From: Methylibium sp. Root1272
GTDB lineage: Bacteria; Pseudomonadota; Gammaproteobacteria; Burkholderiales; Burkholderiaceae_C
NCBI RefSeq assembly: GCF_001425905.1
Contig: NZ_LMDY01000001.1
Coordinates: forward strand, 6,890-70,889
Direction: 5' to 3'
DNA: 64,000 nt
Below the pieces are notes generated by a model. That model worked only from the letters and a program-made list of their open reading frames with translations, was not told where the DNA came from and did no database searches. Positions 3,236-44,060 of the stretch are shown one piece after another; the stretch's first letter is position 1, and each line of letters begins with the position of its first letter. Made by a program: the position numbers and the translations under genes.

Positions 3236-3769
3236 ATGCGTCTCACCACCAAAGGCCGTTTTGCCGTCACCGCCATGATCGATCTGGCCCTGCGCGAGCA
3301 CAGCGGCCCGGTTGCGCTGGCCGCGATCAGCTCGCGCCAGCAGATCTCGCTGTCCTATCTGGAGCAGCTGTTCGGCAAGCTGCGTCGCCATGAACTGGTC
3401 GAGTCGACCCGCGGCCCGGGTGGCGGCTACTCGCTGGGCCGCAAGGCCGAGGAGATCACGGTCGCCGACATCATCGTCGCGGTCGACGAACCGATCGACG
3501 CCACCGGCTGCGGCGGCAAGGAAAACTGCATGGGCGAGGACTCGGGCCGCTGCATGACGCACGACCTGTGGGCCAGCCTGAACACCAAGATGATCGAGTT
3601 CCTGGATTCGATCTCGCTGCGCAAACTGGTCGACGACCAGCTGGCCAAGGGCGTGTCGATCGAGGAGGCGCCGGTCAAGCGGGCCATCTCGTCTCAGCCG
3701 GTGGTCAAGCCCATCAAGATCACCGCGCCGAACTCGGTGTTCGCGCTCGGTAGCTCGTTCAGCAAGTAA
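3236..3769 (+). CDS. iscR: Fe-S cluster assembly regulator IscR (Rrf2 family)
   Basis: IscR is a [2Fe-2S]-sensing winged-helix regulator that represses the isc operon when the cell has enough clusters. The protein is 177 residues from the ATG at 3236, which follows AAGGAG and gives the canonical MRLTTKGRFAVTAMIDLAL start; an upstream in-frame ATG at 3182 would add 18 unlikely residues. The cluster ligands are C92, C98 and C106 with H109 just after, spaced slightly wider than the C92/C98/C104/H107 of E. coli. The DNA-binding helix lies in the QISLSYLEQLFGKLR segment. It heads the operon and is followed 54 bases later by iscS. Confidence 0.97.
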   Translation: MRLTTKGRFAVTAMIDLALREHSGPVALAAISSRQQISLSYLEQLFGKLRRHELVESTRGPGGGYSLGRKAEEITVADIIVAVDEPIDATGCGGKENCMGEDSGRCMTHDLWASLNTKMIEFLDSISLRKLVDDQLAKGVSIEEAPVKRAISSQPVVKPIKITAPNSVFALGSSFSK

Positions 3770-3823
3770 TCAACAGCCATCTGCTCCCGCCAGCCAAGCC
3801 CTGACGTCAGGGAGCCGCCCGCC

Positions 3824-11275: not shown

Positions 11276-11510
11276 GCCTTCCCCCTAGGTGAGCTTGCCG
11301 ACGACCTGCCCGATTCGAGGCAGTCGGCCGCGGGCGCGCAGCGGCGGGGCCTCGCGGCGGATGGGCGAGGCTTTTCCACAGGCTTGTGCACCGCTGCGGT
11401 GGACAACTCGCGACGACGCTGCGCTGACCGGTGGCGCCGCAATGGAATTCAGCGGGAGTCGGGCGGGTTCTGCGCGCCGATCCGGCGTGTGCCTTCCCTA
11501 GAATCCTTGC

Positions 11511-14500
11511 ATGACCGCGCCCCCGAGTTTCGTCCACCTTCGCACCCATACCGAGTACTCCGTCGTCGACGGGATGCTGCGGGTGGACGACATGGTGGCC
11601 GCGGCGGCGGCCGATGTTCAGCCGGCCTTGGCGATCACCGATCTGTCGAACCTGTTCGGTGCGATCAAGTTCTACGGTGCGGCGCGCGGCAAGGGCGTGC
11701 AGCCGTTGATCGGCGCGGACGTGTGGCTGGAGCCGGAAGGCGACGAGAAGCAGCCCAGCCGGCTGTTACTGCTGGTGCAGGACCGCACCGGCTACCTGAA
11801 CCTCTGCGAGCTGATCTCGCACGCCTGGACCGAGAACCTGCAGCGTCACCAGGCCTGCGTGGCTTGGCAGCAATTGGCGACGCATGGCGAGGGCCTGATC
11901 GCGTTGTCCGGCGCCGACCTGGGCGCCGTGGGGCTGGCGCTGCTGGCCGGGGATGCTGCGCGTGCCGAGACGCAGGCGCTGCGGTTGGCCTCGCTGTTCC
12001 CCGGGCGGTTCTATCTCGAACTGCAGCGCGCCGGGCAGCCCGGCAACGAGGCTCAGGTGCGGGCGGCGGTGCCGATGGCCGCGAAGTTGGGGCTGCCAGT
12101 GGTGGCGACGCATCCGGTGCAGTTCCTGACCACCGATGATTTCGAGGCCCATGAGGCCCGCGTCTGCATCGCCGAAGGCGAGACGCTGATCAATCCACGC
12201 CGCGTCAAGCGCTTCACGCGCGAGCAGCACTTCAAGACGGCCGCGCAGATGGCCGAGCTGTTCGCCGATATCCCGTCGGCACTCGCCAACACGCTGGCGA
12301 TCGCGCGCCGTTGCCATCTGACGCTGACGCTCGGCAAACCGCAGTTGCCCGACTTCCCGACCCCGGTCGTCGACGGCCAGCGCATGGCACCGGACGACTA
12401 CTTCCGCCACGCCTCGCACGCCGGGCTGAACGAGCGGCTCGTGCACCTCTACCCGAACGCCGATGAGCGTGAGCGTCAGCGCGCGCGCTACGTCGAGCGG
12501 CTGGACTTCGAGATCGAGACGATCCTGAAGATGGGCTTCCCGGGTTACTTCCTGATCGTGGCCGACTTCATCAACTGGGCCAAGAACAATGGCTGTCCGG
12601 TCGGGCCGGGGCGGGGCTCGGGCGCCGGCTCATTGGTGGCCTATGCGCTGAAGATCACCGACCTCGACCCGCTCGCCTACAACCTGCTGTTCGAGCGTTT
12701 CCTGAACCCGGACCGCGTGTCGATGCCCGACTTCGATATCGACTTCTGCCAGGGCAACCGAGATCGCGTGATCGACTACGTGAAGCAGAAGTACGGCCGG
12801 GACGCGGTGAGCCAGATCGCCACCTTCGGCACGATGGCCGCCAAGGCCGCGTTGCGCGACGTGGGTCGCGTGCTGGGCATGGGCTATGGCCATGTCGACA
12901 GCATCGCCAAGCTGGTGCCGGCGCCGCCTGGCAAGACGGTGACGCTGAAGCGCCCCGGCGACAAGCCCGACCCGGGCCTGATCTACGCGCGCAAGGAGGC
13001 GCCGGAGATCGAGCAGCGCGAGCAGAAGGAAGAGGAGGTTGCCGAATTGCTGGCACTGGCTGAACGTGTGGAAGGGACAGTGCGCAACATCGGCATGCAT
13101 GCGGGCGGCGTGCTGATCGCTCCGGGCAAGATCACCGACTTCTGCCCGCTCTACCAGCAGCCCGGCAGCGACTCGGCGGTGAGCCAATACGACAAGGACG
13201 ACGTCGAGGCGATCGGCCTGGTGAAGTTCGACTTCCTCGGCCTGGCCACGCTGACGATCCTGGAATTGGCGAAGGACTTCATCCGTGCGCGCCACGCCGA
13301 TCGCGCGGACTTTGCCTTCGAGAACATCGCGCTCGACGACCGCAAGACCTACCAGCTGCTGAGCGAGGGCAAGACGGTCGCGGTGTTCCAGCTGGAAAGC
13401 CGCGGCATGCAGGGCATGCTGCGCGAGGCCCGCCCCAGCGTGTTCGAGGACATCATCGCGCTGGTGGCGCTTTATCGGCCAGGCCCGATGGACCTGATTC
13501 CGAGCTTCTGTGCGCGCAAGCACGGCAAGGAGGAGGTCGACTACCCTCATCCGCTGATGCGCGAGGTGCTCGAGGAGACCTACGGGATCATGGTCTACCA
13601 GGAGCAGGTGATGCAGGTCGCCCAGCGCCTGGGTGGCTACTCGCTCGGCGGCGCCGACCTGCTGCGCCGCGCGATGGGCAAGAAGAAGGCCGAGGAGATG
13701 GCCAAGCACCGGGTCATCTTCGCGGAAGGCGCGGCCAAGAACAGCATCGGCGCGGGTCTCGCGAACGAGATCTTCGACCTGATGGAGAAGTTCGCCGGCT
13801 ACGGCTTCAACAAGTCGCACGCCGCGGCCTATGCGCTGCTGGCCTATCACACGGCCTGGGCCAAGGTGCACTTCCTGGCCGAGTTCACCGCGGCCAACAT
13901 GAGCGTCGCGCTCGACGACACCGACAAGCTCAAGATCTTCCACGACGACGCGGTGGCGCTGGGCGTGGTGTTCGAGGCCCCCGACGTCAACGCCGGCGGC
14001 TACCGTTTCGAGCCGGTGGCGCCGCAAGGCAAGGAGCGCGGCCGCGTGCGCTATGGGCTCGGTGCCATCAAGGGCACGGGGCAGGGCGCGATCGAGGCGA
14101 TCGTCGACGCGCGCCGCGAGGGCGGGCCCTATGAGAGCCTGTTCAATTTCGCTGCGCGGGTGGACCGCAGCCGCGTCAACAAGCGGGTGGTCGAGGCACT
14201 GATCAAGGGCGGCGCCTTCGATGCCCTCGAGGCCGACCGCGCGGTGCTGATGGCCAGCGTGCCGCTCGCCTTCGAGTACGCCGACACCCAGGCGGCGAAC
14301 GCCGACCAGGGTGGGCTGTTCGACTTTGGCGACTCGCATGCCGCCTCGACCAACGAGCCCGATCTGGTGGCCACGGATCCCTGGAGCATCAAGGAGCGGC
14401 TGACGCAGGAGAAGGCGGCGCTGGGCTTCTACCTCTCGGGCCACCTGTTCGACGAATGCGAGACCGAGGTGCGGCAGTTCGCCCGGCGCCGCATCGCCGA

Positions 14501-33103: not shown

Positions 33104-36100
33104 ATGACCTCCAGCGCCCGATTGCCTTTCCTCCTGCGTTCGTGTCAACGCGGCGCCGCGCCGCGCGTCCTGCTGTGGACCGTGGGCGCCGTGGCGGCCC
33201 TGGCGCTTGTGTGGACGCTGCTGATCGGCTGGTGGTTGCCGGGCTTCCTGAAGCCGCGCATCGAGGCGGCGGGCAGCGAGGCGCTCGGTGCACCGTTGGT
33301 CCTCGACCGCATCGAACTGGCGCCGTGGCGGCTGGAAGCGGTGATCTCCAGCCTCAGGCTCGGGCCAGCCGAGGCGCCCTGGCTGCGCATCGCCGAGCTG
33401 AGGGCCGATCTGTCCATCGAGTCGCTGTGGCGGCTCGCGCCGGTGCTCGAGCGCGTGCTGGTGCGCGAGCCTCAGGTCGAGCTGGAGCGGTTGGCACCCG
33501 GGCGCTACAACATCACGCCGATGCTCGAGGCGCTGGCGAAACGACCGCCGTCGCCGCCCGACGCCAAGCCGGCGCGCTTCGCGCTGAACAATATCCGCCT
33601 CGAAGGCGGACGCATCCACATCGCCGACCGCGTGTCGCGCAGCGAGCACCACGTGGAAGGCCTGCAGATCGGCATCCCGTTCGTCTCGAACCTGCCGTCG
33701 CATGTGGAGATCCACGTCGAGCCGCTGCTCGACGCGCAGGTCAACGGCAGCCGCCTGCAGGTGCAGGGCAAGACTCAACCGTTCGCCGAGGGGCGGCGCT
33801 CGCACGTCGACGTGAGCTGGCGGCAGCTCGACGTGCCGCGCTGGGTCGAGGCGTTTGCGCCGCTGCTGCCGCAGGCACTGCCGATCGACGTCTCGCGCGG
33901 GCAGCTCGACCTGCAGCTCGCGATCGGCTTCGAGCAGCCGCCCGCGCCGGCGGCGCCGCTGCTGCGGATCGAAGGGGGCGCCACGCTGTCCCAGCTCCAG
34001 GCGCTCGTGCCGGCGCAGGGCGCGCGGGTCGCGGTGGAACGGCTCGCGGTCGAGGGGCTGGACCTGCGGCCGCTCGAACGCAAGGCCGTCGTCGGCTCGA
34101 TCCGCCTTCAGGCGCCGCAGCTCGAGGTCGACCTGCCGCGCCTCATGGCCACGGCGCCGGCTCCCGCCGGCAAGGACCGACTGGTGTTGTCCGATGCCGC
34201 CCCGGCACGCGCCGCGTCGTCCGCCAGCGCAGCGGCGAGTGCCGCCTCGGCGCCCGCCGCGGCCGGCGATGCCGACGGTTGGCAATGGCGCGTGGACAAG
34301 CTCGAGCTGGCCGAAGGCCGCGTGCTGCTGACCGAACCGGCCTGGCCCCAGGGCCAGGCGTTGACTCCCATCACGCTGGCGGTCAGCGGGCTCGACGCCC
34401 GCGCCGATGCGCCGCCCGCCACGCTGGCCCTGTCGCTGGCCGACGCGCAGGGCGCCAAGATCCAGGTCGACGGCACACTGTCGGTTGCGACACGCAGCGC
34501 CCGGCTGAAGGCCGACGTGGCCGGTTTCAAGCCGACCGCGTGGCTCACGCCCTGGCAGGCCCTGCTTCCGGTGCGCGTGCTGGGGGCCGACGTGGCGCTG
34601 CAGGCGCAGGCCGAGGCCGACCCGGCGGGCTGGTCCGTCAGCGAGGGTGCCCTGCAGCTCACGGGACTGGACTTGCAGCCGGTCGGCGCCGTGGCGCCTC
34701 CGCCGCAAGTTGCGCGCAAGGCGGCCGGCAAACTTGCCAAGCCGGCCACTGCGACGGACCGGCTGCGCCTGTCGCGGCTCGACGTGAGCGGGCTGCAGGT
34801 CGGTGCGCGTGCCGCCGAGCCGATCGTGGCCCGCATCGCTGCCGTGAAGCTGGACGGTCTGGACCTCGAGGCGGCGCGCAACGAGCGGGGCGTGATCGGC
34901 TGGCAGCCACCACCTGCCGAGAAGGCGGTGCCGGCATCAACGGCCGCGGCGCCCGGGCCATCGGCCCCGCCGCCGCGCTGGCAGGTCAGCGAGCTGAGCT
35001 GCAGCAACTGCGCCGTGACCGTCAGCGACCGCAGCGTCAAGCCGGTCGCGGCCTTCGGCATCGCGCGCACCGATCTCAAGCTGCGCCAGCTCGACAGCGA
35101 CCTGAGCAAGCCGCTGAGCTTCGAGCTGGCCACCGCCCTGCAGCACGGCGGCCGGCTGCGCGCCAGCGGTACCGCGCAGCCGCAGCCACTGTCGCTGCGC
35201 AGCAAGATCGACCTCGAATCGCTCGACCTGCGGGCGCTGCAGCCCTACGTCGAGGCGCGCTTGAACGTCTCCCTCGTGTCGGCCAAGGTGAGCGCGCGGG
35301 GTGACTTGCAGGTCGACGGCACGGCGCAGGAAGCCGTCTCGCTGGCGCGCTGGCGCGGACGGCTGGCGCTGAAGGAATTGCGTGTGCTCGACCAGATCAA
35401 CCAGGCCGAGTTCGTGCGCTTCAAGGGGCTGCAACTCGATGGCGCCGATGTGGGGTGGCGGCCTGCCGCGGTCGAAGCCGATCTGGGCAGCGTCTCGCTC
35501 GACGACTTCTATGGCCGGGTGATCGTCAATGCCGACGGTCGCATCAACCTGTCCAGGATCGTCAAGCGCCCGGGCGATGCCGCGCCGCGCTCGCTGACCA
35601 GCGAGAACGGGGCCGACGCGGCATTGGCGCCTGCGACGCCCGAGCCGGCATCTTCCGCCACGGCTTCGGCCTCCGCGGCATCCGCACCTGCTGGCACCGC
35701 TGCGGCCCCAGCCGCGCCCCCGCCCCAAGTGCGCTGGCGCGAGATCCGTCTGGCCGGCGGTACCGTCGACTTCACCGACAACTTCATCCGCCCCAACTAC
35801 TCGGCCAAGCTCACCGACATCGCGGGCGAGGTGTCGGCGCTGGCCTGGAACAACCCGCAGCCGGCCAGCGTGAAGATCTCCGGCAAGGTCGACGGCGCGG
35901 CGCCATTGGAGATCAGCGGCACCATGCACCCGCTGGGCCCGCGCCTGGCGACCGACATCACGGCCAGCGCGCGCGGCATCGACATCACCCGTCTCACGGC
36001 CTACTCCGGCCGCTACGCCGGCTATGGCATCGAGAAGGGCACCCTGTCGGTCAAGGTCCGCTACAAGATCGAGAACGGCAAGCTGGAGGCCGAGAACAAT

Positions 36101-36898
36101 GTCTATCTCGACCAGCTCACCTTCGGCGACAAGATCGACAGCCCCGACGCGCTGAAACTGCCCGTGCTGCTGGCCGTGTCGCTGCTGAAGGACCGCAATG
36201 GCGTGATCGACATCGACCTGCCGATCAGCGGCAGCCTCGACGATCCGCAGTTCTCGGTCGGCCGCATCATCGTGCGTGTGATCGTCAACCTGATCACCAA
36301 GGCCATCACCGCGCCGTTCTCGCTGCTCGCCAGCGCTTTCGGTGGCGGCGGGCAGGAACTGGGTTTCGTGGAGTTCGCGCCCGGCTCCACCGAACTCAGT
36401 GACGCCAGCCGTCAGCGCCTGGACACGCTGGCCAAGGCACTGACCGACCGGCCCGCCCTCAAACTCGAGGCCACCGGCCGCGCCGACGCGGCCGTCGACG
36501 AGCCGGCGCTTCGTGTCCAGTACCTCGATAGCCTGGTGCGCGCCGCCAAGGCCCAGTCCACCGGCGAGCTGGCCGAGAGCGTGAAGATCGAGCCCGCCGA
36601 GCGAGCCCGTTGGCTCGAGGCTGCCTACAAGGCCGCCGACCTGAAGACCAAACCCCGCAACGTCATCGGCCTGGCCAAGAGCTTGCCGCCGGCCGAGATG
36701 GAGGCCCTGCTGCTGGCCAGCGCGCCGTCCGGCGAGCCGGCCCTGAAGACCCTGGCCGACCAGCGCGGCGACCGCGTCAAGGCCTACCTGACGGCGAAGG
36801 TGCCGCCGGAGCGAGTGCTGCTGACGGCATCCAAGCTGGGCGCGGAGGGGATCGACGACAAGGGGTCCACCACCCGCGTGGCCTTCGCCCTGAAATGA
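33104..36898 (+). CDS. giant AsmA-like DUF748 protein
   Basis: A 1264-residue protein anchored by an N-terminal membrane helix (VLLWTVGAVAALALVWTLLIG, about 24-44). The long periplasmic part belongs to the DUF748/AsmA-like group, relatives of TamB/YhdP-type bridge proteins thought to move phospholipids between membranes. Two Ala-rich low-complexity linkers (about 360-390 and 840-875) separate beta-rich domains. The last 200 residues begin with GFVEFAPGSTELSDASRQRL and resemble a divergent OmpA-like module. The start ATG at 33104 lies 15 residues ahead of the helix region; no nearby partner genes are seen. It directly precedes the tmRNA gene. Confidence 0.88.
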   Translation: MTSSARLPFLLRSCQRGAAPRVLLWTVGAVAALALVWTLLIGWWLPGFLKPRIEAAGSEALGAPLVLDRIELAPWRLEAVISSLRLGPAEAPWLRIAELRADLSIESLWRLAPVLERVLVREPQVELERLAPGRYNITPMLEALAKRPPSPPDAKPARFALNNIRLEGGRIHIADRVSRSEHHVEGLQIGIPFVSNLPSHVEIHVEPLLDAQVNGSRLQVQGKTQPFAEGRRSHVDVSWRQLDVPRWVEAFAPLLPQALPIDVSRGQLDLQLAIGFEQPPAPAAPLLRIEGGATLSQLQALVPAQGARVAVERLAVEGLDLRPLERKAVVGSIRLQAPQLEVDLPRLMATAPAPAGKDRLVLSDAAPARAASSASAAASAASAPAAAGDADGWQWRVDKLELAEGRVLLTEPAWPQGQALTPITLAVSGLDARADAPPATLALSLADAQGAKIQVDGTLSVATRSARLKADVAGFKPTAWLTPWQALLPVRVLGADVALQAQAEADPAGWSVSEGALQLTGLDLQPVGAVAPPPQVARKAAGKLAKPATATDRLRLSRLDVSGLQVGARAAEPIVARIAAVKLDGLDLEAARNERGVIGWQPPPAEKAVPASTAAAPGPSAPPPRWQVSELSCSNCAVTVSDRSVKPVAAFGIARTDLKLRQLDSDLSKPLSFELATALQHGGRLRASGTAQPQPLSLRSKIDLESLDLRALQPYVEARLNVSLVSAKVSARGDLQVDGTAQEAVSLARWRGRLALKELRVLDQINQAEFVRFKGLQLDGADVGWRPAAVEADLGSVSLDDFYGRVIVNADGRINLSRIVKRPGDAAPRSLTSENGADAALAPATPEPASSATASASAASAPAGTAAAPAAPPPQVRWREIRLAGGTVDFTDNFIRPNYSAKLTDIAGEVSALAWNNPQPASVKISGKVDGAAPLEISGTMHPLGPRLATDITASARGIDITRLTAYSGRYAGYGIEKGTLSVKVRYKIENGKLEAENNVYLDQLTFGDKIDSPDALKLPVLLAVSLLKDRNGVIDIDLPISGSLDDPQFSVGRIIVRVIVNLITKAITAPFSLLASAFGGGGQELGFVEFAPGSTELSDASRQRLDTLAKALTDRPALKLEATGRADAAVDEPALRVQYLDSLVRAAKAQSTGELAESVKIEPAERARWLEAAYKAADLKTKPRNVIGLAKSLPPAEMEALLLASAPSGEPALKTLADQRGDRVKAYLTAKVPPERVLLTASKLGAEGIDDKGSTTRVAFALK

Positions 36899-36949
36899 CG
36901 CCGGCAGGGTCTGCACGATGCCCTTGAATCAGCTGGCGGACCCACCACC

Positions 36950-36955
36950 TACAAT
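36950..36955 (+). promoter_or_regulatory. probable -10 element of the tmRNA promoter
   Basis: TACAAT lies 9 bases before the first base of the tmRNA, the right place for a sigma-70 -10. A TTGAAT at 36924-36929 is 20 bases upstream, longer than ideal for a -35. Confidence 0.5.
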
Positions 36956-36964
36956 GCACACACA

Positions 36965-37336
36965 GGGGCCGACCTGGTTTCGACGTGGGTGCGGAATTGG
37001 AGTGGTGCATGCCGAGCATCAGTGAGCTCGTAAATCCAGCTGAAACAAACCAACTGCGAACGACGAACGTTTCGCCCTCGCCGCTTAAACACCGGTGAGC
37101 GTCTCAACGGCAGGCCGATGGGCCGGGCCCAAGCCGCAAGGTGGAAGGCTGAGACGTCATGCACATCGGCTGGTTGCTCGTCGGGTCACTCGGCGTTCAA
37201 CGAGACTCAGTGACTGGCGTTGTCCGTAGCGTGCTTCTGCGCGACGGCAACGTGAGACCCAAATCAGACAGCTAAGCATGTAGATCTACCCGAGGATGGC
37301 TTGCGGACGGGGGTTCGATTCCCCCCGGCTCCACCA
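36965..37336 (+). ncRNA. ssrA: transfer-messenger RNA
   Basis: The 372-nt RNA begins GGGGCCGACCTGGTTTCGAC and ends with the T arm GGGGG-TTCGATT-CCCCC, CGGCTCC and ACCA; the ends pair as the tRNA-like acceptor stem with one G-U. The tag reading frame at 37056-37088 is GCG AAC GAC GAA CGT TTC GCC CTC GCC GCT TAA, encoding ANDERFALAA. tmRNA rescues stalled ribosomes and tags the product for proteolysis. Its 3' end is the attachment site of the integrative element that follows; the repeat leaves the gene intact. Confidence 0.97.
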
Positions 37337-37414
37337 AATTGAACGGCCCGTGCCAGTGAAAGACCACTGGGACGGGCTTCTTCTTTTGGGCTCAAAACAG
37401 CCTTGATTGGCGTC
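37310..37414. repeat. left attachment repeat (attL) overlapping the tmRNA 3' end
   Basis: From GGCTCCACCA at 37327 to GGGCTC ending 37393 the sequence is identical to 41947-42013, 67 bases, and similarity continues with two mismatches to 37414. Upstream, GGGGGTTCGATTCCCCC is also shared; this copy has one extra C. It contains the true tmRNA 3' end and terminator. Confidence 0.92.
37346..37387 (+). terminator. tmRNA terminator
   Basis: GCCCGT-g-CCAGTG pairs with CACTGG-g-ACGGGC (37346-37377), then TTCTTCTTTT. It begins 9 bases after the tmRNA CCA. The same hairpin is duplicated at 41966-42007 in the right-hand repeat. Confidence 0.85.
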
Positions 37415-37417
37415 CGA

Positions 37418-37450
37418 TTCGCACGTGAGTCGCACGCAGATTCGCACGTG
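37418..37450. promoter_or_regulatory. putative integrase arm-type sites, left end
   Basis: TTCGCACGTGAGTCGCAC (37418-37435) and TTCGCACGTG (37441-37450) give three tandem copies of a CGCAC core between att and the integrase stop. A 17/18 match, TTCGCACGTCAGTCGCAC, recurs at 41876-41893 near the other end. Such end-located repeats are the pattern of integrase arm-binding sites. Confidence 0.6.
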
Positions 37451-37460
37451 AGCCTGGCGC

Positions 37461-38666
37461 TCAGACCTGCCCTTCGATGGCGATTCGCAGCCTTGCGGCC
37501 TGTGGTCGCTGGTAGTCCTGGCTGATGAACTTGCCGTAGACCCTGAACACGAGCTGCACGTCCACGTGCCCGAGTTGCTGGGCGACGTACCAAGGGTTTG
37601 CGCCGGCCGTGAGGAGGGCGCTGGCGAAGGTGTGGCGCACTTGGTAGGGGTTGCGGTACCGGACGCCTGACCGTGTGCACAGCGGCTCCCAGAGGGTCTT
37701 GCGGATCTGGGCGTCGGTTTCCCATGCGGCGCTGGTGCGCGGGTTGTTCCAGACGTGCTCGCCGGCCAGGAAGGTGGCTGACTTCTGGGCGATCAGCGCG
37801 GCAATGGCTTCGTCGTTGAGTTCCACGTCCCGGATACCTGCGGCCGTCTTCGGGCCCTTCTCGGTCTTGGCGACCAGGTTGCGGTCGATCCGGGCTTTGC
37901 GGCCGACCCAATCTATCTTTGCCCACCGCAAGGCCATGAGTTCGCCAGGTCGAAGGCCAGTGTTGAACCAGAACTGCAGCATGGGCCGCTCGTCGGCGCG
38001 GGCGTGTTCCAACAAGGTCGCTCGTTCCTTGGAGGCGAAGGGGTCGACCTCGTAGTCGCTGGCCTTCGTGGTCTGGCGCAGCAGCTTGCCGAGCGCGATG
38101 CGGTCGAAGGGGTTGTAGTCGATCAGCTCGTCGTTCAGCGCGTCCTCGAAGACGCTGCGCAGCGGTGTGAGCAGGTTGCGGGCTCGCTTGGGTGTGACGC
38201 CCAGGGCGCTGATCCAGTCGCGGAGCTTGCTGGGTGTGACCTGGCCGAGCGGCAGCTCGTCCCAGAACTTCATGCGCTGGCTGTTGATGGCCTTGCGGTA
38301 GCCGTCGAGCGTGCTGGGGCTGAGCGCTCAGTTCGCATGCTGGCGCTCGTAGAGGTCGAGTTGCTTGTCGAGCAGGGTGCGCATGGCAACGCGCCGGCCG
38401 CCCTCGAGCTGCTTGGCCCGCTCGCTGTGCGGGAAGTAGTCTGGATAGTGAAACGTGCCCTCTGCGATCTTGCGAAGGATTTCGGCACGTAGACCGCCCG
38501 CGTAGTGCAGGGCGGTTTGAGTGATCGAACCAGGCGGCAGCAGCTCGCGGCACTCGGTGCGGCGGAAGCTGAACGCGATCTGGATGCGCTCTTCGGTCTT
38601 GAACTTTCTGATGCTTACGCCGCGCGGATAGACGAGCTCGCGCGCGGGTCTTGGCCTTCCACCCAT
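37461..38666 (-). pseudogene. int: tyrosine integrase interrupted by one in-frame TGA
   Basis: Read through the stop, the frame encodes about 400 residues. The N-terminal part (38666-38331) is an arm-binding domain of the DUF3596 type (VSIRKFKTEERIQIAFSFR, then ILRKIAEGTFHYPDYFP). A TGA at 38330-38328 follows YERQHAN, and the same frame continues ALSPSTLDGYRKAINSQ into the core-binding and catalytic domains. The catalytic set is present: TGLRPGELMALRW (Arg), YQVRHTF (His-x-x-Arg region), GHVDVQLVFRVYGKF (His, Tyr). The TGA looks like a single substitution, for example from GGA or CGA. A Met 54 bases further on could give a 270-residue core-catalytic protein. The gene ends about 125 bases from the tmRNA and overlaps the excisionase-like gene. 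Confidence 0.85.
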
Positions 38667-38842
38667 TTGTTCACCTCTTCAAGGTTGACCCAGAGATTGC
38701 CGTCGGGGCCGAGTCGGCAATGCTGGCCGTCGGTCCACTGGCGCTTGCGGCGGCGTGCGTGTACGGCATCGGCCGTGTCGCCGCTCAGCTCACAGTACTT
38801 GGCGAGCCGGATCCAGTGCAGGGGGGAGAGGTAGGCGCTCAT
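38615..38842 (-). CDS. excisionase-like small DNA-binding protein
   Basis: A 75-residue basic protein (IRLAKYCELSGDTADAVHAR, then KRQWTDGQHCRLGPDG and VNLEEVNKWVEG) of the AlpA/excisionase winged-helix type, where a helix reads DNA and a WxxG-like turn precedes a tryptophan. Xis proteins direct the integrase to excise an element. Its 3' end overlaps the integrase start by 52 bases and its start lies 6 bases after the rep stop, the order expected for an integration module. Confidence 0.75.
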   Translation of the reverse strand: MSAYLSPLHWIRLAKYCELSGDTADAVHARRRKRQWTDGQHCRLGPDGNLWVNLEEVNKWVEGQDPRASSSIRAA

Positions 38843-38848
38843 GGTTGT

Positions 38849-39691
38849 TCACACCGCGAATCCGCCGAGGAGGCTGTAGGGGCCTGCGATGTCCCGAAGT
38901 GCCTGTGGGTGTGTGAATAGCCGAGTTGCGATAACGCGGGCTCCAACGAGGGACACCCGCCAGGGCGACGGCACGCAAACCCCCGTTCCCCGTTCAACCA
39001 GGCCAACACCTTTGACACGCACAAAGCTACTTTCAACTCCGGCAAGAGACTTGAGCCATGTGGGCAGGTTGAACCAGCGTCGAATCGGCTTGGCAAAGTC
39101 GTCGTGTCCTCCAGAGCCGTGGAGTCTGCATCCCTTGGGAAGAGACGCCTGACCGTCGAACTTGCTGACGTACTTGCAGAGGTATCCGACGGCGTTGCGC
39201 GCCCACTCGATACGGGTGTGTCCATGCGGCCACCAACCTTGCTTGTCTGGTTTGGGAAGGGTGAGACCACGCGGCAGCCAGAGGAGCACGTGGTAGTGGA
39301 GGGCTCCGCGCCGTTGCAGCTCGGCCACCCACACGTAGCGCATGCGGTGGCCCTTGCGCTTCATCCATTGGCGGATGTGCTTGAGCAGGGCGGAGATATG
39401 GCCTGGCCGGAAACCGTCAACGTCCCGGTAGGTGAGGGTGAGCATCGCGGGCTTGAACTGCCGCGTGCCGAGGCCGAAAGCGAAGAGGCGGGCCGCTGTG
39501 GTGACTGAACGTCGAAGACGTTTCAGACGAGCCTGGACCTGATCGATCTCGACTGAGTCGTCGGGGTGCGGCGTGTCACTTGTTTTAAGAGTGACAAGCC
39601 CAGGGCCTGCGGCCCGATCCGCTGCGCCTGCCGGCGCAGCAGCCTCGTGCCGAGGCCCACGGCCGAAAACCGAAGATGAGAGGTGATTCAT
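38849..39691 (-). CDS. HUH-type rolling-circle replication initiator
   Basis: A 280-residue Rep protein. Motif 1 is PAMLTLTYRDVDGF at 81-94, motif 2 is the metal-binding HUH as H132-Y133-H134 in GALHYHVLLWLP, and motif 3 is GYLCKYVSK with nicking-tyrosine candidates Y170 and Y174. These enzymes nick a double-stranded origin and start rolling-circle replication of small plasmids, filamentous-type phages and satellites. The ATG at 39691 abuts a perfect palindrome, and a TTGACA promoter lies just upstream. The gene leads the rep-xis-int operon. Without a second replication gene the element may make only single-stranded or circular copies in the presence of host factors. Confidence 0.88.
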   Translation of the reverse strand: MNHLSSSVFGRGPRHEAAAPAGAADRAAGPGLVTLKTSDTPHPDDSVEIDQVQARLKRLRRSVTTAARLFAFGLGTRQFKPAMLTLTYRDVDGFRPGHISALLKHIRQWMKRKGHRMRYVWVAELQRRGALHYHVLLWLPRGLTLPKPDKQGWWPHGHTRIEWARNAVGYLCKYVSKFDGQASLPKGCRLHGSGGHDDFAKPIRRWFNLPTWLKSLAGVESSFVRVKGVGLVERGTGVCVPSPWRVSLVGARVIATRLFTHPQALRDIAGPYSLLGGFAV

Positions 39692-39730
39692 GTTCCCTCA
39701 ATCGTAGAGGGAACATAATTATCCTGTCAA
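39691..39730 (-). promoter_or_regulatory. rep promoter with palindromic operator
   Basis: On the minus strand TTGACA (39730-39725) is followed after 18 bases by TACGAT (39706-39701). A perfect 9-bp inverted repeat, TGTTCCCTC-n7-GAGGGAACA (39691-39715), spans the -10 and touches the rep ATG. A repressor bound there would occlude the promoter; if transcription starts upstream, the same repeat would hide GAGGGA, the likely ribosome binding site, in a stem. Confidence 0.65.
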
Positions 39731-39746
39731 GGCACTTCAGGTGCCT
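39730..39746. repeat. short inverted repeat next to the rep promoter
   Basis: AGGCAC-ttcag-GTGCCT lies between the stop of the unknown gene and the rep -35, perfect over 6 bp. It may be a weak terminator for the upstream gene or part of the rep control region. Confidence 0.4.
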
Positions 39747-39750
39747 CTAT

Positions 39751-40128
39751 CTAGATCTGACGCTTGTCGAGCTCCAGCGGGGACTTCTCGTCACCGGAGA
39801 CGAGCTTCCAGAAGTTCGAGACGGCCTTGATGATCTTGTAGGCGTTGGTGCGTTCAGCATCCGGGCCGAACTCATCGAAGACCTCGGAGAGCTTGATGCC
39901 GAGGATCTCTTCGTACTTGCGGATCGTCTTCTTGCTGTGTACCAGGTAGAGCACCTTCCAGCCGAGGTGATGGGCGAGCAAGTACATGCCAAGCGCCGAC
40001 TCGACCTCATCAATCCCGTACTGACCGGACGGCAACGACCGCACAACGTTATCAATGAATGCATAGCGCTCGTGCGCTTGGGCGGGTGTGGCGAGCGGGG
40101 TCTTCCACGCTTTGTGCTTGGTGGCCAT
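39751..40128 (-). CDS. unknown protein of the integrative element
   Basis: A 125-residue soluble, mostly helical protein. Visible features are RYAFIDNVVRSLPSGQYGID, a hydrophobic LGMYLLAHHLGWKVLYLVH segment at about 48-66 too polar to be a membrane helix, and KTIRKYEEILGIKLSEVF. I do not recognise the family. It lies directly upstream of rep on the same strand, 60 bases away, and is divergent from the reverse transcriptase, so it is more likely part of the element backbone (replication or copy control) than of the RT system. Its composition is closer to the backbone than to the RT. Confidence 0.7.
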   Translation of the reverse strand: MATKHKAWKTPLATPAQAHERYAFIDNVVRSLPSGQYGIDEVESALGMYLLAHHLGWKVLYLVHSKKTIRKYEEILGIKLSEVFDEFGPDAERTNAYKIIKAVSNFWKLVSGDEKSPLELDKRQI

Positions 40129-40181
40129 CCGGCGAGGATAGCAGGGGAGGGAATTTCATCAACCCTTCGACAACCGAGCGT

Positions 40182-40247
40182 GGGTTGCCCACCGCGTCGG
40201 TCGTGCGTTCGTCGCGAGCGACGCCCGTCCGACGCCGTGGACAACCC
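40182..40247. other. large imperfect hairpin upstream of the reverse transcriptase gene
   Basis: The 19-base arms 40182-40200 and 40229-40247 are inverted repeats matching at 17 of 19 positions. The 28-base loop holds a second perfect hairpin, CGTCGC-ga-GCGACG (40210-40223). The whole lies 83 bases before the RT start in a 202-base divergent gap. It could be the Rep nicking origin, a structured RNA partner of the RT, or a two-way terminator. It is GC-rich, unlike the RT gene. Confidence 0.7.
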
Positions 40248-40330
40248 GCAAGCACTCCAGTAATCGACAGAGAAATACCATTACATTCGGAGCAACTGTT
40301 TTATTTGAGTCGCTTACGCGGGATCACAGC

Positions 40331-41812
40331 ATGAGCACAGAAAAATTCTTCATTGGTGATTTTCCATCGACCCTTTACCCGCTTCAGACCAATTTATTGA
40401 TGGTGTCAAAGCACGGCAAAGAAATTGCTGAATATATAAATAATAAAATTCTCTCGGATAAGCCTGAACATGCAGGGAATTGCTTTCTGCCGCAGCAGCG
40501 TGTATACGCGCCAAAGCCTCGAAATCATCTCCGCCGTACAGTTTGTTTGGATCCTATTGCGTCATATTTCTTGTACGACATAATATACAGAAATAGAGCA
40601 TCTTTCAGAAAGCCTGTCAGTGATGCACGGAAGTGTTATGGGTATCGATTTGATGCAGGTGAGCCGATTCTTGTTCGGCATGCATATAAGGATTTTTGCG
40701 ACGACATTGAATCCTACTATATGTTGTATGCGAATTCCCTAAAATTCGATATCGCCTCGTACTTTAATTCAATCTATCACCATGATCTCGTTAATTGGTT
40801 TGCGTCCCTTAAAAATTCCTCCTCCACAGATATTGTTAATTTTGGTCGGTTTTTTAGAGAGATTAATGCTGGAAGATCAATCGATTTTTTGCCGCACGGC
40901 ATTTACCCGGCAAAGATGATCGGCAGTGAGTTTCTGAAGTTCATTGATCTTTCAAAGCAGATTAAATCTAGCCAAGTGTGTCGGTTCATGGATGATTTCT
41001 TTTTGTTTGATAATAACGAATCAATAATCCGAACTGATTTTCTTCGGATCCAAGAGCTTCTTGGGGCGAAGGGGCTCAATATAAATCCTAGCAAAACAGA
41101 TGTTGGGGCTGGAAGTGCTGGGGTTAATGGCGAAATAACTGAAATTCAAGCTGAAATAATAGCTTTGATTGGAGGGGATGAAATTCCGGCCTTGCCTTCA
41201 ACTGTTGATGTAGATAACGCGCAGAATGGTTTGGGTTTAAGCGATGATCAGGCGGATAAGTTGTTGACTTTGCTGACAAATGATAAGGCTGAGGAAGCGG
41301 ACGTCGAGAGAATTTTGTCGCTTCTGAAGGATCATGCTGATTCAATAGTTGGAGTATTTGGTCAGCTTGTTAGTAAGTTTCCTGGTGTTGTGAAACATCT
41401 TAGTTGGTTCAGTGGCGCAATTAAAAATAAAGAGGATTTGTCCACTGAGGTGTACAAGCTTGCCTCTGGTGCTGCAAACTTAATTGAATATCAGATATTC
41501 TGGTTGGCTGTTATATGCGAGGATCATTTAAAGGGTACAAAAGACTATTCAAATGCGGTATTGGCATTGTATGGTCGATCGTGCGATTACCCGATAGCAA
41601 GGGCAAAGATTTTGGAAATGCCTGATCAATGGTACGGCTTGAAGGAAATAAGGGATGAGTATTTGAAAACGGGTGCGTCGCATTGGTTGTCGTGGGCATC
41701 TGCAATGGGTACTCGAACGCTAAAATTGGCTGAACGTAAATACGTCCTGGATTATTTTTCCAAAGGATCTCCAGTGAATCATTTGGTTGCTAGTTGCGTA
41801 ACCTCGTTGTAA
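40331..41812 (+). CDS. reverse transcriptase of the Abi/UG (defence-associated) type
   Basis: A 493-residue protein with RT palm motifs in order: RT1/2 region RVYAPKPRNHLRRTVCLDP (57-75), motif A SLKFDIASYFNSIYHHDL with D140, motif B LPHGIYPAKMIGSEFL (187-202), motif C CRFMDDFFLFDN with D221-D222, and motif D GLNINPSKT (248-256). The catalytic aspartates are intact. From about 260 to 493 it is an all-helical tail, without a maturase/X domain, zinc finger or HNH, so it is not a group II intron enzyme; the retron hallmarks NAxxH and VTG are also missing. The pattern fits the Abi/UG RTs that protect bacteria from phages. Its DNA is roughly 40% GC by eye in a genome near 67%, so it was recently acquired. 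It is the only obvious cargo of the element. The ribosome binding site is weak. Confidence 0.85.
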   Translation: MSTEKFFIGDFPSTLYPLQTNLLMVSKHGKEIAEYINNKILSDKPEHAGNCFLPQQRVYAPKPRNHLRRTVCLDPIASYFLYDIIYRNRASFRKPVSDARKCYGYRFDAGEPILVRHAYKDFCDDIESYYMLYANSLKFDIASYFNSIYHHDLVNWFASLKNSSSTDIVNFGRFFREINAGRSIDFLPHGIYPAKMIGSEFLKFIDLSKQIKSSQVCRFMDDFFLFDNNESIIRTDFLRIQELLGAKGLNINPSKTDVGAGSAGVNGEITEIQAEIIALIGGDEIPALPSTVDVDNAQNGLGLSDDQADKLLTLLTNDKAEEADVERILSLLKDHADSIVGVFGQLVSKFPGVVKHLSWFSGAIKNKEDLSTEVYKLASGAANLIEYQIFWLAVICEDHLKGTKDYSNAVLALYGRSCDYPIARAKILEMPDQWYGLKEIRDEYLKTGASHWLSWASAMGTRTLKLAERKYVLDYFSKGSPVNHLVASCVTSL

Positions 41813-41875
41813 TAGTGAAATTTGACTGCGGAATTGACAAGTCGCGTCCTTCGTGTACTTTTCTGTGGTCGTGCG

Positions 41876-41893
41876 TTCGCACGTCAGTCGCAC
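41876..41893. promoter_or_regulatory. putative integrase arm-type sites, right end
   Basis: TTCGCACGTCAGTCGCAC matches 37418-37435 at 17 of 18 bases. It lies about 50 bases inside the right attachment repeat, mirroring the position of the left copies. Confidence 0.6.
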
Positions 41894-41929
41894 GTGCTTG
41901 GCTCAGTACACATTGACACGAGAGCGATC

Positions 41930-42034
41930 GGGGGTTCGATTCCCCCGGCTCCACCAAATTGAACGGCCCGTGCCAGTGAAAGACCACTGGGACGGGCTTC
42001 TTCTTTTGGGCTCGAAACGGCCTTGATTGGCGTC
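41930..42034. repeat. right attachment repeat (attR of the element, left end of a second relic)
   Basis: A second copy of the tmRNA T arm, CCA end and terminator, offset by 4620 bases from the first over the identical 67-base core. One C is missing between the T arm and GGCTCC compared with the tmRNA. Because the shared sequence runs far beyond the tRNA-like part and is followed by an integrase fragment, it is both the right end of the intact element and the left end of a second, related one. Confidence 0.9.
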
Positions 42035-42143
42035 GGTTTCCCATGCGAAGCCGGTGCGCGGGTCGTTCCAGGCGTGCTCGCCGGAAAGGAAGGTGGCTGA
42101 CTTCCGGCCAAGCAGCGCGGCAAGGGCTTCGTCGTTGAGTTCG
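42031..42143 (-). pseudogene. relic fragment of a second tyrosine integrase
   Basis: The minus strand encodes an open 38-residue stretch, ELNDEALAALLGRKSATF and on to WETDA, that matches the integrase of the intact element at 29 of 38 positions. It lies just beyond the right attachment repeat. In the intact copy the corresponding region is 37711-37823, about 300 bases from att; here it is joined directly to att through the shared GGCGTC, so the 3' third of that integrase was lost. It marks a second element once integrated in tandem. Confidence 0.85.
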
Positions 42144-42177
42144 GCGCTTCGAGAAATCGAGGGCGCAGGCCTTTCGC

Positions 42178-42339
42178 CTAATCCAAGATCAAGTACACGC
42201 CCACCAGGGCCACTGCAACCGAGGCCACCAGGTCGATCATCTTGCGTCGGGCAGAACGATCGCCCGGGCCATGCACCGTATGAGGAGGCGCTGCACGACG
42301 GTCGGTGGCAGGAGCGCGACCCCGCGGCTCGGTTTTCAT
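42178..42339 (-). CDS. tiny membrane protein, downstream member of a pair
   Basis: A 53-residue frame ending in one hydrophobic helix (MIDLVASVAVALVGVYLILD), with a basic N-terminal half. Its start overlaps the stop of the upstream small frame in an ATGA. No family recognised; a real gene is plausible because of the coupling and clean membrane segment, but it is short. Confidence 0.4.
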   Translation of the reverse strand: MKTEPRGRAPATDRRAAPPHTVHGPGDRSARRKMIDLVASVAVALVGVYLILD

Positions 42340-42518
42340 CGCATCTGCCTTGGCTGCAAACTCACGGCGGCGTGGCTGCGACAGACGATCGCACCGATCA
42401 ACGCGACCACCGTCCCGATATCGTTTCCGGCGCCGTAGCGCCACAACACCCCCACGACGAAGAGAAGTGCTCCGTAGCGAGTCAGCATTCGTGGCGAGCC
42501 GGTCGGTTGATGCAGCAT
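42336..42518 (-). CDS. tiny membrane protein, upstream member of a pair
   Basis: A 60-residue frame (or 50 residues from the inner Met at MLTRYGALLFVVGVLWRYGA) with two hydrophobic segments, the second being DIGTVVALIGAIVCRSHAA. It is coupled by ATGA to the next small frame. Unknown function. The stretch from 42519 to 42692 holds nothing convincing. Confidence 0.4.
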   Translation of the reverse strand: MLHQPTGSPRMLTRYGALLFVVGVLWRYGAGNDIGTVVALIGAIVCRSHAAVSLQPRQMR

Positions 42519-42692
42519 GCGGCGACTTTCAGGTGTTCTTCACCCGACAGTGCATCCAGAAAATTAGCGCTGCATTAAGGAGGTTCGGGTTCGTCGCCTT
42601 GCCGCGTCATCAGGTTCGAAATGCCATGGACGGCTCGTTTCCGATGCATCCAGATGGGAGGATCGAGATTGCCCTGAGGCCGGACCGATCCA

Positions 42693-43232
42693 ATGCCGCG
42701 AAGAACCGAAGACTGCCTGACATGGGTGCAGCGGTACGTGTACGTTCAGCGCCGGGACCGCGTACTGGAGATCGGCTGCGGGCCAGGCAAGCTGGCTTCG
42801 ATGATCATGCCCAGGCTCAGAGAAGGCTCGTACACCGGCATCGATCCCTCTGCCCAAGCCATAGCGGCCGCCGTTCGCAGCAACCAGGCAGACATCGCGA
42901 CGGGACGTATGGTGTTTCATGCCGTCGACCTCGCGAACGCGCCGCTGGCGGCTGCCAGCTTCGACAAGGTCATTGCCGTGAACGTCGACCCGCTTTGGAT
43001 GGGAGCGGGCCCCGAGTTGGGCATCGTTCGGTCCCTGATGGCCCCGGCGGCCGTGCTGTACTTGGTGTTCCAGCTTGCCCCAACGGATGATTCGGCCGGT
43101 CTCGTCTCGCGGCTGATGCCTCGCCTTCATGCGAATCGTTTGAGCATCAGCGCCATCTGCTCGCGGCAGACGGTGCCGACGCCAACGCTGTGCGTCGAGA
43201 TACGCGGCGCGGACGATGAGGTGACGCTATGA
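42693..43232 (+). CDS. SAM-dependent methyltransferase
   Basis: A 179-residue class I methyltransferase with motif I VLEIGCGPGKLASMI, the acidic motif II TGIDPSAQAI and a motif IV-like FDKVIAVNVDPLW. The protein is short and probably lacks a large substrate domain, so the substrate is not predictable. It converges with the LapG-like gene (18 bases between stops). It is the first plausible host-type gene after the integration site. Confidence 0.82.
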   Translation: MPRRTEDCLTWVQRYVYVQRRDRVLEIGCGPGKLASMIMPRLREGSYTGIDPSAQAIAAAVRSNQADIATGRMVFHAVDLANAPLAAASFDKVIAVNVDPLWMGAGPELGIVRSLMAPAAVLYLVFQLAPTDDSAGLVSRLMPRLHANRLSISAICSRQTVPTPTLCVEIRGADDEVTL

Positions 43233-43250
43233 CGGCCCACGGGACCGGCG

Positions 43251-43970
43251 TCAATGCAACTGCTGCCTGGTGCGCGCCAGCGTCGTGCGCCACGGTCGGA
43301 TCCCGCTCCGGCCTGGCGAGATCGGCGCCGCATCGACCCGCTGCCAGACGGCCGATTGGTCGAAGCTGAAGACCGGTTGGAGGTCATCGCGGCGTGACAG
43401 CGCCAAGAGCAGCGGGGTGATGCAGTCCATCACCAGCGGATCGACGAGCGGCCACCCGGCAAGCACCACGAGATGCGGCACCGTCGCCGCAAGGAGGTCC
43501 AGCCGACGTTGGCGCGCATACAGCAGCCGAACGCCATGCCTGGGGCTGCCGCTCGCCAGGAGCAGGAAGAACTTGGTGATCGCGAAGTCTTCGCAGTCAC
43601 CCGTGCCGCGGGCCAGGGTTTCGCAGGGAGTCGACCACACGTCGGCGCCGGGCGCCGACTCCGGATCTGCCGCGTACTCGATCCGTTGATTGATCTCGAC
43701 ATTGACGAAGGCGATGCGCCGGTCGAAATCCAGCGCGTGTGCCGCAACCGCCAAGGCGTCGAATTCGTGCCTCGCCTGTCTCAAGTCGCCGTCCAGGGGC
43801 TGGGCGATGCTGTGGAAGGTGGATGCGCACAGACATGTTGCCGTGCAATGTCTGACGAACTCGCGCCGATCGCAGCGGCAGGCGCCGGGCTCGCCGGCAG
43901 ACGGAACAAGCGAGGCATCCACGCGGCCCTCCCAGTCTCCGACGCGTCGAGTTCCGGGCGGGACCGCCAA
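43251..43970 (-). CDS. transglutaminase-like cysteine peptidase (LapG-like, BTLCP family)
   Basis: A 239-residue protein with the bacterial transglutaminase-like cysteine proteinase core: WSTPCETLARGTGDCEDFAI (catalytic Cys in GDCEDF), the histidine in VPHLVVLAGW and the aspartate in PLVMDCI. LapG-type enzymes cleave large adhesins at the cell surface under c-di-GMP control. Neither the LapD receptor nor a LapA-type adhesin is encoded in this window. The N-terminal 60 residues are unusual, with several cysteines (RHCTATCLCAS), and the true start may be further in. Confidence 0.8.
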   Translation of the reverse strand: MAVPPGTRRVGDWEGRVDASLVPSAGEPGACRCDRREFVRHCTATCLCASTFHSIAQPLDGDLRQARHEFDALAVAAHALDFDRRIAFVNVEINQRIEYAADPESAPGADVWSTPCETLARGTGDCEDFAITKFFLLLASGSPRHGVRLLYARQRRLDLLAATVPHLVVLAGWPLVDPLVMDCITPLLLALSRRDDLQPVFSFDQSAVWQRVDAAPISPGRSGIRPWRTTLARTRQQLH

Positions 43971-44060
43971 GACGCGCGCATCGGGAGCCGCCAGTGTCTG
44001 CTTCTCGGATCGGCGCGTCTCCTGTCATACCTTGCTAGGTTCAAACCCGCACTCGCCGCC

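Follow-up and report, generated by a model that had tools for sequence, protein, structure and literature searches.

A DRT type 5 reverse transcriptase as the single cargo of a 4.6-kb element integrated at ssrA, with a proposed AbiK/DRT4-like chemistry and a putative defence-shuttle vehicle

PMC7699616, which summarises Gao et al. (2020), equates DRT type 5 with UG16, and the antiviral screen summarised there reported DRT type 5. AbiK, AbiA and Abi-P2 are placed in Class 1 of the UG/Abi reverse transcriptases (PMC12632851). AbiK forms a hexamer and carries out template-independent synthesis primed from Tyr44 (PMC9508834), and DRT4 is described as making random single-stranded DNA, again template-independently (PMC13213688). 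For DRT5 itself, two overviews from 2026 list the mechanism as unresolved (PMC13213688, PMC13314766). Several kinds of small mobile element bear comparison with the carrier of the gene studied here. PICMI satellites of Vibrionaceae are very small integrative elements, defined by an integrase, AlpA, a primase and a fis site, with a hotspot for single defence systems that include DRT and PARIS (PMC10803314). The I55 elements of Pseudomonas have a tmRNA site, direct repeats, a tyrosine integrase and phage-defence cargo, and lack transfer genes (PMC12595487). Inoviruses and their satellites, such as RS1 and pDolos, provide a further point of comparison (PMC11389934). In the present work we analysed a 64,000-nucleotide stretch of the genome of Methylibium sp. 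Root1272, called the window below. We consider it probable that the reverse transcriptase found there is a Class 1 UG/Abi enzyme, DRT5, carried as the single cargo of a 4.6-kb element in ssrA, with an AbiK/DRT4-like chemistry and a vehicle that shuttles defence genes as the two parts we infer.

The element is seated in the 3' end of the tmRNA gene ssrA (36965..37336, plus strand; called by ARAGORN, Rfam tmRNA 190.6 bits), its integration target, between direct repeats that form the attachment sites. The left repeat (37308..37393, plus strand) consists of the tmRNA 3' end and the sequence that follows it, and it matches the right repeat (41929..42013, plus strand) at 98.8% over 86 columns. The right boundary is also supported by an empty site in a genome of the same genus (G003), which matches the window over 34924-37386 and then over 43250-44050, with 25 bases in between, so that 37387-43249 is absent from that genome. 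Two more same-genus genomes (L221 and L222) match as far as the tmRNA, with no match beyond it. With its attachment repeats, its integrase gene and the empty site in a relative, this is a site-specific integrative element, 4.6 kb in length.

From left to right, the element encodes an integrase, a putative excisionase, Rep and ORF125, all on the minus strand, followed by drt5 on the plus strand. The tyrosine integrase is not intact. Its 402 codons lie in one frame with a single internal stop between the arm DNA-binding N-terminal part (38328..38666, minus strand; 112 aa; PF12167, E 3.6e-18) and the catalytic part (37461..38273, minus strand; 270 aa; PF00589, E 3.1e-15); an uninterrupted relative in another tmRNA element (L125) has 380 aa and is 44% identical over 246 aa. 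With the integrase interrupted, the window's copy of the element may be stranded. The putative excisionase (38615..38842, minus strand; 75 aa) matches PF06806 at E 0.0015, below the family cut-off, and has a relative in L125 at 35%. Rep (38849..39691, minus strand; 280 aa) is a rolling-circle replication initiator of the inovirus G2P type (PF23343, E 3.4e-36; phrog_2969, 8.5e-53). Between its gene and that of ORF125 (39751..40128, minus strand; 125 aa), the signature gene of the family described below and conserved in other elements, lies an inverted repeat (39677..39729; arms of 23 nt, 78% complementary) that could be an operator or a replication origin. The initial annotation had taken the reverse transcriptase gene for the sole cargo of a small Rep-Xis-Int element, and by sequence this stands with one correction: the 112-aa ORF, possibly read there as Xis, is the integrase N-terminus, and the excisionase-like gene is the 75-aa ORF. 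ORF125 had not figured in that description. A further correction concerns the DNA directly to the right of the element (42014..43249), which is absent from G003 and belongs, at least in part, to an older insertion, marked by a fragment of a related integrase to the right of the right repeat (42029-42142, 89% to 37710-37823). An ORF within it (42693-43232) looks like a methyltransferase by eye.

This plan resembles that of PICMIs in its very small size and its single defence gene. Unlike PICMIs, ORF125 elements have a rolling-circle Rep, tmRNA or tRNA sites and ORF125; the window's element uses the tmRNA as its site, its replication gene is of the REP_ORF2-G2P kind, and no primase family was found in its five scanned ORFs. 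The I55 elements share the features listed above, and differ, as far as a comparison by description goes, in being larger, in having many ORFs (orf37 is named) and in being transduced by a jumbo phage; neither a rolling-circle Rep nor ORF125 is mentioned in the portion of PMC12595487 on which the comparison draws.

The cargo gene, drt5 (40331..41812, plus strand), starts with ATG and encodes 493 aa with zero internal stops, an intact ORF. PADLOC assigns the protein to Drt5 at E 5.6e-197 (654 bits, with Drt8 as the next-best family at 84 bits), and it scores 595 bits against the NCBIfam equivalog model for the antiviral reverse transcriptase Drt5 (NF041750), above the curated cut-off of 550. 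RVT_1 is recognised by Pfam. It is like DRT type 5 in this whole-length match, in having the same length and in its invariant residues: D140, D221 and D222 are identical in 36/36 sequences of an alignment of the window protein with 35 homologues, built without the plasmid loci and without seven others that have internal stops. Its tail aligns with the homologues at full length, and the fold matches reported below are in keeping with the assignment. Judged by sequence, the product is a clear DRT type 5 (UG16) enzyme, with nothing unusual for this already known family of defence proteins. A retron or group II intron reading is excluded by scores of 12.9 bits (retron St85 reverse transcriptase, cut-off 235) and 18.7 bits (group II intron reverse transcriptase, cut-off 300). 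As for a diversity-generating (DGR) repeat pair, no long repeat adjoins the reverse transcriptase in 36900-43000 besides the attachment and integrase repeats, in a check of the long repeats there. The initial annotation had proposed an Abi/UG defence enzyme, neither retron nor group II intron in type, with intact motifs and a GC content below that of its surroundings, and the sequence evidence supports this; neither a best match to a retron or group II intron nor a decayed tail, named there as refuting outcomes, was seen. The UG class, which had been left open there, proves to be a described one. GC content is 41.3% in drt5, 55.4% in the element and 68.2% in the window outside it. Because drt5 is AT-richer than the remainder of its own locus in 42 of the 45 fetched loci (the exceptions being L028, L029 and L032), a low GC content is typical of the drt5 family.

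Relatives of drt5 were found at 42 loci in one scan of genome contigs and in four plasmid records, three of which were fetched. None occurred in phage records, and none in viral contigs in a scan that reaches close relatives only. Sixteen of 199 genomes searched, the host included, had some match to drt5, and the host was the only one to pass the Drt5 cut-off. The other DRT type 5 genes differ from the window's in their setting, with ORF125 present at 0/45 of their loci; drt5 is therefore excluded as a regular passenger of ORF125 elements, and its presence here represents one capture. The novelty appears to lie more in the carrier, a small integrative element with a defence slot, whose plan we did not find described in a search limited to open-licence papers, where absence is weak evidence.

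PADLOC, Pfam, NCBIfam and PHROGs place ORF125 itself in no family at a significant level (an NCBIfam hit at E 0.14 was taken as chance), and two further members have no match in Pfam. Its predicted structure is helical and of low confidence (pLDDT 69.9), with no PDB fold under E 0.001. Plasmid and phage records contain no ORF125 at E 1e-5, and IMG/VR has it in two distinct contigs only, of 49 and 89 kb. With a profile, it was found in 13/399 genomes of the host's order, the host included, in 2/369 genomes of the host's class (one being the host, the other belonging to a different order) and in 33/85 genomes of one genus within the host's order, at 50 places and with the host not in the count; 45 of these places were fetched (39 new, 6 earlier). 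ORF125 also lies beside Rep in three of 11 fetched Rep regions (L092, L093 and L095), in elements of 4.1-4.7 kb with tRNA-Phe repeats.

To delimit elements, a script sought a copy of a tRNA or tmRNA 3' end with ORF125 in between at 59 loci, including the window. Elements were delimited at 29 loci, at 4.06-9.13 kb (median 6.1 kb), and all 29 contain ORF125 by construction; the other 30 loci gave no such repeat, partly owing to contig ends. The sites are tmRNA in 12 cases, tRNA-Met in six, Phe, Lys and Ser in three each, and Thr and Arg in one each, with the reservation that some tmRNA repeats are just 15-25 nt long and that the best copy was chosen where there were several. One integrase cluster is represented in 28 of the 29, the remaining one being the window's element, whose interrupted integrase was missed by the ORF caller. 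Five Rep-like clusters are spread over the same 29 elements: a GPA type in 13, a Rep_trans type in nine, the G2P type in four, C15 in two and C51 in one. The types were assigned by Pfam from one GPA protein, the window's G2P protein and a Rep_trans protein from L119 (which shows 81% and 44% identity with two members of that cluster); C15 and C51 were judged Rep-like by eye, the latter having no match in Pfam.

The cargo of these elements comprises 48 non-core ORFs of at least 150 aa, some of them surely spurious, and 28 of these, mostly the longest, were scanned against PADLOC. Matches were obtained for 16/28 at E 0.001 and for 11/28 at 1e-10. Strong ones are DRT5 in the window, DRT4 (L130, 1.6e-157), PARIS AriAB (L175, 3.6e-212), AriA and AriB (L198), a GmrSD-like HEC-06/Orf5 protein (L188), TIR proteins (L125 and L184), a ThsA/SIR2-like protein (L189), in which Pfam finds SIR2 with a weak STAND match, a subtilase (L173), and a type II methyltransferase standing beside a BglII-type nuclease (L122). 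Pfam adds dCTP-deaminase-like proteins (L131), HEPN (L166), an AbiJ domain (L191), Vsr (L124) and HicAB (L095); the matches in L128, L180 and L181 are weak and not to be relied on. No PADLOC match was seen for 12/28, and for eight of them Pfam gave none as well: those in L126 (501 aa), L190 (325), L168 (313), L092 (298), L180 (293), L170 (251), L167 (247) and L193 (243). A control scan with PADLOC covered 60 of the 191 ORFs in the flanks; 33 families were matched, none by more than four of the 60 proteins, and flanking ORFs also gave strong matches to defence families (MzaA, IetA, a reverse transcriptase). The tally is not one of distinct proteins, spurious ORFs from a greedy ORF caller dilute the control, and the flanks themselves hold defence genes. 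We therefore claim that the slot often holds defence genes, and give no enrichment factor over the surroundings.

The contents of the slot differ between otherwise similar elements. Two elements in one genome (L119 and L120 in G264) have 3.5 kb of core in common at 94.4%. At their other end 965 nt, with a gene pair resembling a toxin-antitoxin by eye, are shared at 94.3%. The DNA between these shared parts encodes a GmrSD-type protein in L120, whereas in L119 it encodes a CBASS cyclase and two 2TM effectors, of which Pfam identifies one as Cap15. Both stand outside the 29, their repeats lying at no RNA gene called by ARAGORN (in L119 at 3762-3810 and 11494-11542, 98%). In six other pairs of elements the backbones are common at 75-89%, with the unshared stretches at the cargo. 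A third element of G264, L131, holds dCTP-deaminase-like genes.

Taking these observations together, we lean towards the view that the elements form a family, as yet undescribed, of integrative elements that are minimal and of rolling-circle type, each with ORF125, any of several Rep types and a tyrosine integrase, at tmRNA or tRNA sites. Its exchangeable and mainly anti-phage slot would move DRT4, DRT5, PARIS, CBASS, TIR, SIR2-STAND, GmrSD-like and restriction-modification systems between hosts, and the elements would be satellites, either of phages (filamentous or other) or of conjugative elements. The integrase and the excisionase would excise the element from ssrA, Rep would replicate the excised circle, with ORF125 taking some part, and a helper would move it. 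Exchange would take place in the slot that separates the core genes from one attachment site, making the family a shuttle for defence genes. Another reading, which we regard as possible and somewhat less probable, takes ORF125 elements for integrative mobilizable elements that spread by conjugation, Rep serving as the relaxase, and not for phage satellites. The Rep_trans-type protein in 9/29 elements speaks for it, MOBT relaxases being related to Rep_trans (PMC11389934); the Rep of the window is, however, of the G2P type, and 13 others are of the phage GPA type.

The chemistry of DRT5 was approached through its predicted fold. An AlphaFold2 model made from the 36-sequence alignment has a mean pLDDT of 88.7 and a pTM of 0.89, and residues 271-492 are all-helical in it, in agreement with the helical tail of about 230 residues that the initial annotation had proposed. 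The predicted fold has the trait of Class 1 UG/Abi enzymes, a helical (HEAT-like) domain C-terminal to the RT domain. Among the matches listed, the top PDB folds are DRT6 and DRT4 (TM 0.60), UG15 (0.60-0.62), AbiA, Abi-P2 and AbiK, the last three at TM 0.37-0.55 with a large rmsd, as if domains were turned; DRT9 reaches 0.33-0.38, and group II intron and retron reverse transcriptases 0.32-0.40. DRT5 is thus like the Class 1 polymerases AbiK, AbiA, Abi-P2, DRT4 and DRT6 in domain plan and best fold matches, and unlike them in sequence, with 11-16% identity in the structural alignments. We take DRT4, DRT6 and UG16 to be Class 1 likewise.

We suggest that the chemistry of DRT5 is of the same kind as that of AbiK and DRT4. 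The enzyme would oligomerise via its helical domain, prime synthesis from the hydroxyl of a tyrosine or serine, and polymerise DNA without a nucleic-acid template, as its relatives lead one to expect. Infection would either activate DRT5 or let its product accumulate, and the product would block phage replication or kill the infected cell by abortive infection. The alignment and the model supply candidates for the active-site and priming residues, the conserved candidates for priming being Y149, Y475, Y82, Y105, Y144, S183, S450 and S480. Claims about mechanism could be misled by a clash of names, since the enzymes called 'DRT5S' and 'DRT5L', for which protein-primed synthesis is reported, are treated as class 3, defined by a nitrilase or phosphohydrolase domain (PMC13275509), and are probably UG5 and not UG16. 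Being class 3 in that account, they were set aside as a precedent for DRT5; should they prove to be UG16, they would speak for the proposed mechanism.

A different chemistry, in which DRT5 is RNA-templated like DRT2, DRT9 or DRT10, by an ncRNA encoded nearby but unrecognised, strikes us as unlikely. Several DRTs use such RNAs (PMC13213688, PMC12632851), and there is room for one in the ~200 nt that separate ORF125 from drt5 or in the ~115 nt from drt5 to the right repeat. However, the 250-nt flanks of 17 near homologues, compared all against all with blastn-short, gave 0 matches at E 0.01, in a comparison with no positive control that a diverged ncRNA could escape. An Rfam scan of 36500-42800, also with no positive control, returned tmRNA-type matches only, and DRT6, DRT4 and the Abi enzymes rank above DRT9 in fold among the matches listed. 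As for proteins, no general partner gene emerged when the neighbouring ORFs of 45 drt5 loci were compared by eye; they differ among loci outside Rhodobacterales.

Returning to the element, relatives of its Rep occur in 10 phage records (nine of them Xanthomonas phages, ~43%), five plasmid records, 13 IMG/VR contigs and 14/199 genomes, the host included. Rep is of the same family as that of inoviruses and their satellites (~43% over 80%), which could mean that the element is an inovirus prophage in decay, belonging to no distinct element family. We judge this very unlikely, as PHROGs found no structural gene among the five ORFs of the element, their matches being to replication, integration or unknown functions only, and ORF125, absent from phage records at the threshold given above, recurs in the 29 elements delimited at 4-9 kb, in company with five different Rep-like clusters. 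The host genome, searched for a helper inovirus, has no Zot. Least probable of all, and again very unlikely, is that drt5 is an inactive or selfish passenger with no defence role in its host: it does sit in an element with an interrupted integrase, but it is full-length with all invariant residues present, its family is annotated as antiviral in the name of the NCBIfam equivalog and DRT type 5 appeared in the antiviral screen (PMC7699616), and other ORF125 elements carry known defence families.

Our results suggest that the vehicle matters more than the enzyme. If the ORF125 family is real, its elements are compact carriers in which attachment repeats mark the limits of the cargo, so that new defence systems would be discoverable by position. 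The exchange of defence genes would also become open to study, because L119 and L120 differ in cargo within one genome while their backbones are 94% identical. If the reading of the slot as an exchangeable site for defence genes is true, unannotated single cargo genes such as the 501-aa one of L126 and the 325-aa one of L190 would be new defence systems, and we regard the unannotated cargo of L126, L190, L168 and L180 as candidates (L126:2911-4416, L190:8576-9553, L168:640-1581 and L180:11575-12456).

Some features of individual drt5 loci deserve mention. In Rhodobacterales (L020, L021, L050, L051, L052 and L062), a large ORF, annotated as an ATP-binding protein in L020 and L021, lies directly upstream of drt5 and is a possible clade-specific partner. 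The locus on a contig named Streptomyces sp. IBSBF 2953 (L026) is 4.1 kb long with 43-49% GC, and its drt5 looks proteobacterial; this is probably assembly contamination. In Providencia vermicola (L030:8001-11326), drt5 lies near the tmRNA, with a different tyrosine integrase in between; ORF125 is absent, and drt5 seems to have been inserted at tmRNA a second time here, separately. Finally, the drt5 flanks of two loci (L031 and L035) resemble integron attC sites by eye, as if drt5 also moves as a cassette.
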